A program made the translations under genes and the position numbers. 40,014 nucleotides of DNA from a virus. The stretch spans positions 1-40,014 of IMG/VR virus record IMGVR_UViG_3300023179_000234; one strand, given 5' to 3'. Positions within the stretch are counted from its first letter, which is position 1. Every line of letters starts with the position of its first letter. Below are positions 5,474-10,661 of the stretch, in pieces. A model generated the notes under the pieces. The model saw only the letters and a program-made list of their open reading frames with translations. It did not search any database and had not been told where the DNA came from.

Positions 5474-5510
5474 TGGTAAGTACCTTTCAAAAGTCAGTTG
5501 CAACAGTTGC

Positions 5511-5746: not shown

Positions 5747-5766
5747 AGTAGTTCCTTTCAATGATC

Positions 5767-5792
5767 AAAAAAGAGAGGCACTTGGCCTCTCT
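5767..5792 (-). terminator. Rho-independent terminator after the DUF932 gene
   Basis: Read leftward, an 8-bp stem AGAGAGGC/GCCTCTCT with a 5-base loop is followed at once by six T residues. It lies 14 bases past the stop of the DUF932 gene and just before the leader of the next gene. It should end or attenuate transcription from the promoter at 6788-6816. Confidence 0.8.
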
Positions 5793-6749: not shown

Positions 6750-6846
6750 CCTTTCAAAGATCAGTTAAGTGGGTTGCTACAGTTGCAATAATAACACGTT
6801 TAAGGGACTTGTACAATCTTTTTTGTGATTTTTTACAACTTTTTAC
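6750..6846 (-). repeat. Promoter/leader module, copy A
   Basis: One of two near-duplicate blocks of about 100 bp (the other at 7061-7160). Identical segments are the 16 bases at 6750-6765 (leader plus ribosome site), 25 bases from 6778 (the -10 and start region) and 18 bases at 6829-6846 (an A/T-rich block upstream of the -35). The intervening parts differ. The block covers the whole region between two genes. Confidence 0.85.
6788..6816 (-). promoter_or_regulatory. Sigma70 promoter for the DUF932 gene
   Basis: Read leftward: TTGTAC (6811-6816), a 17-base spacer, TATTAT (6788-6793). An A/T-rich stretch upstream (TTGTAAAAAA) could act as an UP element. The transcript would start near 6780 with TTGCAACTGTAG and a leader ending in GATCTTTGAAAGGA. 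Confidence 0.82.
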
Positions 6847-7060: not shown

Positions 7061-7160
7061 CCTTTCAAAGATCAGTAAGTTGTGAAGTACTACAGTTGCA
7101 ATAATAACACGTTTTTGAGGCTTGTGTAAGAATTTGTGACTGTTTTTTACAACTTTTTAC
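7061..7160 (-). repeat. Promoter/leader module, copy B
   Basis: Near-duplicate of 6750-6846: identical leader (7061-7076), identical 25-base start region (from 7090) and identical 18-base A/T block (7143-7160). The 3' end of the block contains the stop codon of the preceding small membrane peptide, as copy A contains the stop of its preceding gene. Confidence 0.85.
7101..7129 (-). promoter_or_regulatory. Sigma70 promoter for the small acidic gene
   Basis: Read leftward: TTACAC (7124-7129), 17-base spacer, TATTAT (7101-7106), followed by the same TTGCAACTGTAG start region as at 6779. It drives the 69-aa gene and may read on into the DUF932 gene. Confidence 0.8.
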
Positions 7161-8146: not shown

Positions 8147-8203
8147 TTGTGATTCCTTTCAATGATCAGTTAGAGTCAGGGTGTTACTTTGTACTACAAG
8201 TGC

Positions 8204-8232
8204 ATAGTACACCATTCTCGTGTTAAGTACAC
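8204..8232 (-). promoter_or_regulatory. Leftward sigma70-like promoter of the divergent control region
   Basis: Read leftward: GTGTAC (8227-8232), 17-base spacer, TACTAT (8204-8209). The leader ends in the same GATCATTGAAAGGA block used by the other early genes. Its -35 box lies only four bases from the -35 box of the rightward promoter at 8237, so the two should compete for polymerase or be controlled together. Confidence 0.65.
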
Positions 8233-8236
8233 AAGT

Positions 8237-8265
8237 TTGACAAAACTTTTACACTCTGTTACAAT
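8237..8265 (+). promoter_or_regulatory. Rightward consensus sigma70 promoter
   Basis: TTGACA (8237-8242), 17-base spacer, TACAAT (8260-8265): nearly perfect consensus. It would start transcription near 8272 and drive the primase-helicase gene through a leader of about 290 bases. Confidence 0.82.
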
Positions 8266-8292
8266 TTACATACCCCACAACGTAGATATAAT
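8265..8292 (+). promoter_or_regulatory. Second, overlapping rightward sigma70 promoter
   Basis: TTTACA (8265-8270), 16-base spacer, perfect TATAAT (8287-8292). It overlaps the end of the first rightward promoter by one base and would start near 8299. Confidence 0.65.
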
Positions 8293-8342
8293 GGCTATCT
8301 GGCAGTGTGATGAGAGCCAGGTATGATATGGCGCTTTGGCAC

Positions 8343-8360
8343 TGTAAAGGCGCCTTTACA
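8343..8360 (+). promoter_or_regulatory. 18-bp perfect palindrome, possible operator
   Basis: TGTAAAGGCGCCTTTACA reads identically on both strands. It lies 51 bases past the second rightward -10 box, inside the leader of the primase-helicase transcript. Dimeric repressors bind sites of this shape; no cognate regulator is identified in the window. Confidence 0.5.
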
Positions 8361-8438
8361 CAAGGCGTAAGTATATGATTCGATTGCACTTTTTGATCAT
8401 TGACAAGGACATGTATGCCACCATCATAGCATAAAAAT

Positions 8439-8474
8439 AAGGCCCATAAGTCACTTGAATGGCTTATGGGCCTT
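8439..8474 (-). terminator. Long hairpin, leftward terminator-like
   Basis: A perfect 12-bp stem AAGGCCCATAAG/CTTATGGGCCTT, extendable by three pairs (one G-U) to leave a 6-base loop. Read leftward it is followed by ATTTTTAT, as in a Rho-independent terminator. Read rightward it lacks a T-run and would be a leader hairpin. A second, 6-bp stem (AGGGCC/GGCCCT, 8479-8484 with 8497-8502) follows at once on the right. Confidence 0.6.
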
Positions 8475-8561
8475 GAAAAGGGCCGCGTTGGGAAATGGCC
8501 CTGAGGAGTCAACACACGCACACACACATCAACAGCAGGAGAAAACAAGGAGCATGGGACA

Positions 8562-10661
8562 ATGACTACAACAACGGGGTTTGCCGCACAAACCGTATCT
8601 CACGAGCAATTATACCAGGATTTCCTGACACAAAGACAATTTACCCCTTATGATGAGCAGGTTTTAGGCCTCCAGTTGCTCACTCCAGATGATACTTTAG
8701 TACTACTTGGCCACACAAAAGATTGGTCTATCAAAGTACCGTATCGAGATTGGTCGGGGCAGGACACGGGCTTTAACCGCGTTAGGCTTCTACGGCCAAA
8801 GAGTAAGATGAAGTACTCGCAGCCAAGGGCCAGCGGATCGCATATCTACTTTCCGGTTGGCCCCACGTGGGGGAAAGTTGCTCAGGACGTGGACGTGCCG
8901 ATCATCATCACGGAAGGCGAGTTTAAAGCCTGGCAAATTTGGAAGTTCGTACAAACCAACCAATTGGACTATGTACCGATTGGGTTGGCAGGGGTGACGA
9001 GTTGGGGCGATAAAGGCGGATTGCCCCTACATAAGGACCTTATGCAAATTGCATGGCGGCGAAAAAACGCCTTTCAAGATAAAAGCCGCAAGGTATTTAT
9101 CATCTTCGACTATGATGGGGCCGAGGACCATGGCGAGCCGAATGAACAGGTTGGTATGGCGGAGACAAAGCTAGCCGTGTCATTGCGGGGTCTAGGCGCC
9201 ACGGTCCATCTTTGCCGCGTCGGACGGTTTGGTCCTGGCAAGGGGCAAAAGTACGCCATTGATGATCATTTGCTATCGGGTGGAGACTTGGGGCAAGTCT
9301 TAACGACGACGTCGGTGACGATGAATGGCGTTGACACATTAGATACGCGACTTTATGAGTTTAAGACTAAATATGCTTTGTTGAATGGCGATGTCATACG
9401 GTTAAGGGACGGCCTTATACTGAGTTGGGCAAAGGCTAAGATTGACTCGGCACAGGAATTTTTTACTCTCGTGTCGACCAATAGCCGTGGTCAGCCCATA
9501 TCGAGAGAATTGCCTTTATTAGATGAGTATAAGAAATGGGGAAGGTGTTGTAAGTTGGACTTTGTAGGTATGTATCCGGAATTTCAGGGATTGCAAATCA
9601 CGCCGGATAGATGCTACAATCTTTTTAAAGCCTGGGCGCATGAACCCATACTTGGCGACCCATCACCGTACTTGGAATTTTGCAATCACTTTTTTCAAGC
9701 CGAGCCCCATTTTGCTGAATACTGGCATGATTGGGTTGCAAATGTCATTCAATACCCATGGAGACGGAATAACACGACGCCTCAGTTTATTCACGACATG
9801 GAAGGGATGGGCAAATCGGCCATTCCGGAATTTATTGCCGAAATGCTAGGCATGGGTGAAGGAGGCGCAGCGGCAACGTTGGGGCCCGACGATCTATTTG
9901 GTAGCTTTAATGGCGTTATGAAGGGAAAGATCTTCATCGTGGTGAATGAGCCCTCATCGGATAGAGATGATCACTCGGCAAAGTTGAAGAATCTGGTCAC
10001 GGGCAAAGAAATTACCATCAACAACAAGTATGGGGCTCAGTACTCGGTTAAGAACTACGTTAACTACGTATTTACATCAAATAAGCCTTACATTACGCAT
10101 ATGGGGAATTCCAGCCGCCGTGAGGCTATTTATAAATGCCCGACTTTTGAACAGATGGACATACTTAAGCGAGTATCGGCTTTGATGAAGTGGGCTCGAG
10201 CAAATAAGGGCATGGGCTTCAGCCATGTATTGAATTGGTATATGGAAAGAGACATAACCGAGTTTGATTCGTATGCTCCGGCGCCAATGACCGAGTACAA
10301 ACAAGTCGCCATCCAGTTAAGTAAAACGCCCATTGAGGCTTTTTGCCAAGAATTGGCCGAGTGGACCGAGCAGCGATTGGATGGTATAGGCGCATTCACG
10401 GCTCCGCAGTTGGCAGTGTTATGCGAGCGTTGGGGGCATGACGCGCGGCCCAAGGCGCAGTACATCAAAAAGGCGTTGCAGCCGTTTGGCGACGTGGAGC
10501 CAGCAAGGCCCATCTCGGTTGGAGGAAAAACCAGCCGGTATACGATCTTAAGAATTACAAAATTCAAGGCACTTGGAAAAAGCCACGGAGAGTGGTCGGA
10601 AGTGGCGCGGAAGACTGAGCAAGAAATTCAACGAGAACTGGGCACTGATAGTAGTTTTTAG
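8562..10661 (+). CDS. Primase-helicase: Toprim-like (DUF3854) plus SF3-type helicase (DUF5906-like)
   Basis: A 699-aa replication protein. The N-terminal part has a Toprim-like core: ITEGEFKAW (E118, E120) and IIFDYDGAED (D183, D185), typical of DUF3854 domains in primase-like proteins. The C-terminal part is an SF3-type ATPase: HDMEGMGKSA (Walker A, GK417-418), KIFIVVNEPSS (Walker B, N462/E463) and YVFTSNKPY (sensor). It presumably unwinds DNA and may prime synthesis for the family A polymerase encoded leftward. AAGGAG lies nine bases before the ATG at 8562; an ATG at 8554 is out of frame and opens only a three-codon frame. It is transcribed away from the other replication genes. Confidence 0.9.
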   Translation: MTTTTGFAAQTVSHEQLYQDFLTQRQFTPYDEQVLGLQLLTPDDTLVLLGHTKDWSIKVPYRDWSGQDTGFNRVRLLRPKSKMKYSQPRASGSHIYFPVGPTWGKVAQDVDVPIIITEGEFKAWQIWKFVQTNQLDYVPIGLAGVTSWGDKGGLPLHKDLMQIAWRRKNAFQDKSRKVFIIFDYDGAEDHGEPNEQVGMAETKLAVSLRGLGATVHLCRVGRFGPGKGQKYAIDDHLLSGGDLGQVLTTTSVTMNGVDTLDTRLYEFKTKYALLNGDVIRLRDGLILSWAKAKIDSAQEFFTLVSTNSRGQPISRELPLLDEYKKWGRCCKLDFVGMYPEFQGLQITPDRCYNLFKAWAHEPILGDPSPYLEFCNHFFQAEPHFAEYWHDWVANVIQYPWRRNNTTPQFIHDMEGMGKSAIPEFIAEMLGMGEGGAAATLGPDDLFGSFNGVMKGKIFIVVNEPSSDRDDHSAKLKNLVTGKEITINNKYGAQYSVKNYVNYVFTSNKPYITHMGNSSRREAIYKCPTFEQMDILKRVSALMKWARANKGMGFSHVLNWYMERDITEFDSYAPAPMTEYKQVAIQLSKTPIEAFCQELAEWTEQRLDGIGAFTAPQLAVLCERWGHDARPKAQYIKKALQPFGDVEPARPISVGGKTSRYTILRITKFKALGKSHGEWSEVARKTEQEIQRELGTDSSF

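Follow-up and report, generated by a model that had tools for sequence, protein, structure and literature searches.

A conserved antisense unit predicted at the start of the primase-helicase gene in a family of uncultured phages

The gap that precedes the primase-helicase gene of the virus considered here is probably a control region for replication genes, in which a short cis-antisense RNA would limit the synthesis of the primase-helicase, and in which a perfect 18-bp palindrome, previously read as an operator, would be a by-product of an RNA hairpin. The putative antisense unit consists of a leftward promoter −10 element, located inside the primase codons, and of an intrinsic terminator, located in the primase 5′ untranslated region (UTR). 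The position of the unit, its conservation, the constraint on the synonymous codons, and the joint presence or loss of promoter and terminator are visible directly in the sequences of the relatives. From the sequence, we infer that the antisense RNA is transcribed and that it limits the primase-helicase.

The window and its relatives

The window, i.e., the whole stretch of DNA that was analyzed, is a linear virus record of 40,014 bases. The genes to the left of the gap are read leftward and are related to DNA metabolism, as they encode a DUF932 protein, a nucleotide pyrophosphohydrolase, and DNA polymerase A, while those to the right include the primase-helicase, the terminase, and the structural genes. 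Sequenced phages gave no DNA-level match to the window, and the closest annotated terminase, with 64% identity, is that of MW202545.1, an uncultured circular genome of 57 kb. The comparisons were made with about 100 related contigs taken from IMG/VR, and since several of these reach 53–58 kb, the window is probably incomplete. DNA-pattern searches for closer relatives returned zero new contigs, and the scan of genome contigs gave a single weak match, L113, which is probably unrelated.

In some relatives (L021-L024, L029, and L066/L025), the primase gene is separated from the rightward promoter by a small gene of about 60–80 codons, and in the window only a 7-codon open reading frame (8411-8434, MYATIIA) is left in this slot. 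It was rejected as a gene because the relatives do not preserve its reading frame.

The antisense promoter and its terminator

The features that define the proposed unit and its surroundings are the following:

8147-8561: gap of 415 bp between the leftward operon and the primase-helicase gene, proposed control region
8562-10661, plus strand: primase-helicase gene (DUF3854 and DUF5906, from Pfam and PHROGs matches), presumed antisense target
8547-8552, plus strand: Shine-Dalgarno site AAGGAG of the primase gene, recognized from its sequence, inside the antisense region
8609-8614, minus strand: antisense −10 element, exact TATAAT preceded by TGG, inside primase codons 16-18
8441-8472, minus strand: stem-loop GGCCCATAAG...CTTATGGGCC of the leftward intrinsic terminator, in the 5′ UTR of the primase gene, with its T tract at 8440-8432
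8433-8602, minus strand: antisense RNA of about 170 nt, predicted from the −10 element and the terminator

Of 42 distinct loci, 40 have the exact minus-strand TATAAT at these codons, and the next best minus-strand column in the primase gene reaches 36%. It recurs in 9 of 11 further distinct loci, which were obtained afterwards and played no part in the discovery of the pattern. The codon for Leu17 is TTA in 40 of the 42 loci, against 15.7% TTA among Leu codons; among 72 other Leu-Tyr pairs, TTA is used in five and TATAAT is formed by only one. The fourfold sites of the primase are near saturation, with a mean pairwise identity of 0.37. Evidence for a promoter opposite the target strand takes the form of a conserved −10 sequence, with no −35 element conserved across the relatives, and with a TG one base ahead of the −10 in the window and in only some of the relatives. 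The unit lies 70–250 nt to the right of the palindrome, outside the region that had been described in the original prediction.

Regarding the 3′ end, the stem-loop at 8472-8441 defines it as an intrinsic terminator. No terminator of the window is stronger, whichever strand is considered, and no other has an exact TATAAT on its own strand within 220 nt upstream. Across the family, the hairpin is located 14–89 nt upstream of the primase start, and its T tract is on the minus strand, as for a leftward terminator, in 40 of the 42 distinct loci; a rightward terminator occurs in seven (7/42), three of which are other hairpins. The stem itself is present in 29 different sequences among 47 loci. A rightward terminator or attenuator at 8439-8474 was considered and discarded, as it would need its T tract on the opposite strand.

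The two parts of the unit are kept or lost together. Among the 42 loci, L066 and L069 are the only ones without the −10 and also the only ones without the terminator. The 11 further loci gave seven with both parts, two with neither, two with the −10 only, and none (0) with the terminator only, so that the combined set of 53 distinct loci, expressed as raw counts of related loci, has 47 with both, four with neither, and two with the −10 only. Moreover, the unit is retained in L013 and L093-L111, where the DUF932 gene has the same direction as the primase gene and the unit has no leftward operon beside it, and for this reason it is regarded as distinct from the divergent promoters discussed below.

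The predicted antisense RNA

With its start set 6–7 nt after the −10, the predicted RNA shares 41 nt with the primase coding sequence. It spans both the start codon and the Shine-Dalgarno site, and therefore overlaps a regulatory part of its target mRNA. The equivalent RNAs predicted for 47 distinct loci range from 93 to 170 nt, with a median of 102, that of the window being the longest.

Within the first 45 nt, the antisense strand folds better than the sense strand in 44 of the 47 loci, and, when compared with synonymous recoding, the antisense has a mean z of −0.84 and the sense one of +0.32. Covariation was analyzed in a 26-sequence subset, where 82% of cells are paired in the hairpin and double changes occupy 15 cells, versus 7.2 expected from shuffles. 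In the window's own copy, the 5′ domain has no unusual stability relative to synonymous recoding (z +0.43), and for this reason the claim of structure applies to the family and not to the window member. The search in Rfam returned no family match at the gathering score.

Proposed mechanism and comparison with known systems

In the mechanism that we propose, the gap at 8147-8561 would control the phage DNA replication genes. Host-type promoters would fire both leftward and rightward, and the rightward transcript would open with a structured leader, the palindrome being a by-product of one of its hairpins. A separate leftward promoter, in primase codons 16-18, would oppose this transcript and give rise to a short antisense RNA, which would cover the start codon and the Shine-Dalgarno site before ending at the intrinsic terminator of the primase 5′ UTR. 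Pairing of this RNA with the primase mRNA would block the ribosome and expose the duplex to cleavage by RNase III, and/or colliding transcription would lower the synthesis of the primase-helicase. A more speculative extension, possible but doubtful, is that the unit may act as a plasmid-like copy-number device, in which the RNA, made from replicating templates, would rise with the genome copies and throttle the primase-helicase, or that its transcription may directly govern the origin, as for pO of lambda.

If true, the unit would represent a new replication control switch, and the control of phage genome copy number could be tested via one synonymous codon change. This uncultured phage family seems to keep an antisense unit whose promoter is part of the very coding sequence that the RNA would target, and conserved antisense units would thus be findable in uncultured phages from sequence alone.

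Plasmids offer the classic cases of replication genes under antisense control, where the RNAs CopA of R1 and RNAI of ColE1, which act either on the Rep leader or on the primer RNA, are experimentally proven. As for these, the RNA predicted here would be small and structured, placed opposite the leader of a replication gene, provided with its own promoter and terminator, and proposed to set the level of replication. CopA and RNAI differ in that they are proven, and on plasmid targets, whereas the RNA discussed here would have a phage primase-helicase as target and is predicted from the sequence.

We read the layout as resembling the pO-oop-tO segment of lambda, where the leftward promoter pO, at the start of gene O, lowers transcription from pR and affects replication (PMC3985674). 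The likeness consists of a short leftward RNA that begins at the start of a replication gene, opposes rightward transcription, and ends at a terminator. However, the known mutation in the −10 of pO is 2 bp from the O start codon, while the −10 described here is inside primase-helicase codons 16-18. In addition, lambda oop RNA, at first taken for a primer, then turned out to be antisense to cII (PMC3985674), which lies next to gene O, whereas the RNA predicted here would cover the ribosome-binding site of the primase-helicase gene itself; the overlapped gene is the DUF3854/DUF5906 primase-helicase, and no cII-like gene was recognized here. Among other phage examples, the sar RNA of P22 is a cis-antisense RNA that keeps the antirepressor at the right level (PMC12197685), its target being part of a lysogeny circuit and not, as here, a replication enzyme. 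Antisense transcripts with a proposed regulatory role were also described for LUZ100, LIT1, and LUZ7 (PMC10134795), where they are discussed for structural genes instead of a replication gene.

Other readings of the antisense unit need to be weighed against this mechanism. It is unlikely that the leftward unit serves replication itself, either as an RNA primer or as an origin-activating transcript, with antisense repression being incidental: the unit does sit at the start of a replication gene, and pO activity at the equivalent place in lambda affects replication (PMC3985674), but the gap has no iterons or long direct repeats, and the role of oop RNA as a primer was considered unlikely for lambda (PMC3985674). 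A pure coincidence, with the TATAAT being a chance product of coding and the hairpin an unrelated two-way terminator or mRNA stabilizer, appears very improbable, despite a few clades in which short T runs flank the hairpin on both sides, given the choice of the Leu17 codon (TTA in 40/42), the strand bias of the T tract, and the fact that all four loci without the −10 are also without the terminator. Least probable of all is the view that the −10 adds one more leftward promoter to the left operon and that the hairpin is its attenuator. The leftward genes do come next in the window and in the divergent relatives, but a separate, conserved −10 already belongs to the left operon, and the unit is retained where the neighboring DUF932 gene points rightward (L013, L093-L111).

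The divergent promoters

The antisense unit is flanked on its left by a divergent promoter region, whose elements are listed below:

8237-8265, plus strand: rightward promoter 1, TTGACA-17-TACAAT, 11/12 consensus (−35 TTGACA at 8237-8242; −10 TACAAT at 8260-8265, extended by a preceding TGT)
8265-8292, plus strand: rightward promoter 2, TTTACA-16-TATAAT, 11/12 consensus (−35 at 8265-8270; −10 at 8287-8292)
8209-8204, minus strand: leftward −10 TACTAT, without a recognizable −35, position-conserved in 33/33 divergent loci
8217-8223, minus strand: conserved CACGAGA element, adjacent to the leftward −10 on its upstream side and possibly bound by a regulator

The original prediction had placed a divergent promoter region between the two operons, and this is borne out by the strength of the promoters and by the relatives, with every sequence that it named present where it had been located. 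The region is real and ordinary in kind, the back-to-back arrangement being supported by both sequence and conservation. The two rightward promoters are the only sigma70-type matches of at least 11/12 in the 40-kb window, and none (0) of 2000 shuffles of the gap yields two such sites on the rightward strand, so that both are far beyond chance. In L003-L005, the 3′ part of the spacer of promoter 1 and its −10 (TGTTACAAT) are identical and the −35 is weaker (AAGACA), while both hexamers of promoter 2 are preserved.

On the leftward side, the −10 has at least 4/6 matches in 33/33 divergent loci and at least 5/6 in 23 of them. It had been paired with GTGTAC (8232-8227), in the layout GTGTAC-17-TACTAT with four bases between the two −35 boxes, and this part of the prediction does not hold: GTGTAC matches TTGACA at only 2/6 positions, the relatives have no good −35 there, and the hexamer was rejected as a −35. 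As for the neighboring element, CACGA occurs within 25 nt of the leftward −10 in 12 of 33 loci versus 2.4% of background 25-mers.

Several dyads were noted among the divergent promoters. In the window, an imperfect dyad, AGTACACAAGTTT-GACA-AAACTTTTACACT (10/13), covers 8226-8255, at the −35 regions of the divergent promoters, with a right half nearly identical in L037, and represents a possible candidate operator. Between the divergent promoters of L044 and L052 lies TGTGACACATGTCACA, a CRP-type site that is perfect and is located about 240 nt before the start of the primase match; it is more plausible as a shared operator than the palindrome of the window. The dyad CATCCAT-GTACA-ATGGATG is placed between the divergent promoters of L041-L045, L054, L058, and L063, and is identical across all the representatives of its clades. 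These dyads of other clades would fit better the idea, put forward in the original prediction, of one regulator switching between two operons.

The palindrome and the leader of the rightward transcript

Downstream of the rightward promoters, the leader of the putative transcript includes:

8296-8323, plus strand: leader hairpin 1, stem TATCTGGC/GCCAGGTA; the stem is largely kept and the loop diverged in L037
8330-8354, plus strand: leader hairpin 2, GGCGCTTT/AAGGCGCC, source of most of the palindrome and kept in all close relatives
8343-8360, no strand: 18-bp palindrome TGTAAAGGCGCCTTTACA, made up of the hairpin 2 loop, the 3′ arm of that hairpin, and the flanking TTTACA

This perfect palindrome exceeds in length all others in the window, where it is present in single copy even when three mismatches are allowed. 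When the window was shuffled 200 times with dinucleotides preserved, 38 of the shuffles contained a palindrome of this length or more, and the palindrome is therefore not significant genome-wide by itself. With respect to promoter 2, it spans about +45 to +62, i.e., downstream of both starts, and it neither overlaps nor separates the divergent promoters. The exact sequence is found only in the window and in L002/L033, whose primase is 99% identical; L003-L005, at 87–88% primase identity, have one arm altered (TGTAAAGGCGCCTATACA), and all the other relatives lack the palindrome, which is thus not conserved where promoters are kept. Loss in relatives that maintain both promoters would have spoken against the operator by the logic of the original prediction, and this is nearly what occurs, L003-L005 having kept promoter 2 in full and promoter 1 with a weaker −35.

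The view that the palindrome is an operator, through which a dimeric phage or host regulator would switch both divergent operons, is consequently not supported, and we consider it quite unlikely. It was rejected on position, conservation, and chance, the latter evaluated on the whole window, and the changes seen in L037 affect either a hairpin loop or the sequence beyond the hairpin, with the dyad broken by one of them. In its favor are the perfect 18-bp dyad within the promoter region, the surrounding 50 bp that are 92% identical in L037, and the rarity of such a length for the 415-bp gap alone (42 of 20000 shuffles). On the other hand, the dyad is broken in L003-L005 despite the retention of promoter 2, is absent in all others, and is not repeated even at three mismatches. 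Repressors of the HTH_3 family, the only one searched, were not found in eight relatives, and no regulator gene was recognized among the left-arm genes of one relative. The remark, in the original prediction, that no repressor gene is seen in the window carries little weight, because the window is a 40-kb linear record and the relatives reach 53–58 kb.

The palindrome is best read, with moderate and not strong confidence, as the combination of the loop and the 3′ arm of hairpin 2 with the adjacent TTTACA. In L037, the differences inside hairpin 2 are confined to the loop, and the single change within the palindrome falls outside the hairpin and breaks the DNA dyad; the pattern, with the stems of the leader kept, the loops different, and the dyad broken, points to RNA, a reading that rests on two sequence variants. 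Segment 8330-8379 has 92% identity with L037, compared with 48% at the primase fourfold sites, and on this basis it is under selection, although a role as a DNA site keeps some small probability. The palindrome as a free RNA hairpin was discarded, being weak (−4.9 kcal/mol in the window and −1.2 in L037). The stability of the whole leader RNA over the family, with a mean z of −1.0, is only partly supportive. A motif, TACAC after a hairpin, recurs in several leaders and is suggestive, having been chosen post hoc.

Leaders of the early genes

A further leader element was noted at the left end of the gap:

8155-8168, minus strand: leader TGATCATTGAAAGG of the first leftward gene, with a related copy at 8394-8407 (plus strand), repeated upstream of early genes

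In its general form, TGAYYATTGAAAGG, this leader is repeated at 5483-5496, 5754-5767, 6750-6763, 7061-7074, 8155-8168 (minus strand), and 8394-8407 (plus strand). Upstream of the early genes, it has 10 matches with at most two mismatches, versus 3.5 expected, and it is also found across the phage family; it is possibly an extended ribosome-binding or translational control element.

The leftward leaders of L046, L053, L056, L064, L071-L088, and L021-L029 begin with a stable hairpin, ACAGCAA...TTGCTGT, or CATCATC...GGTGATG in L053, with a mean z of −1.4 over all loci; this hairpin was not seen in the window. Finally, the space that separates the DUF932 gene of the window from the leftward gene after it holds, at 5792-5772 on the minus strand, a terminator-like hairpin, AGAGAGGCCAAGTGCCTCTCT, with TTTTTGATCATTGAAAGG directly after it.
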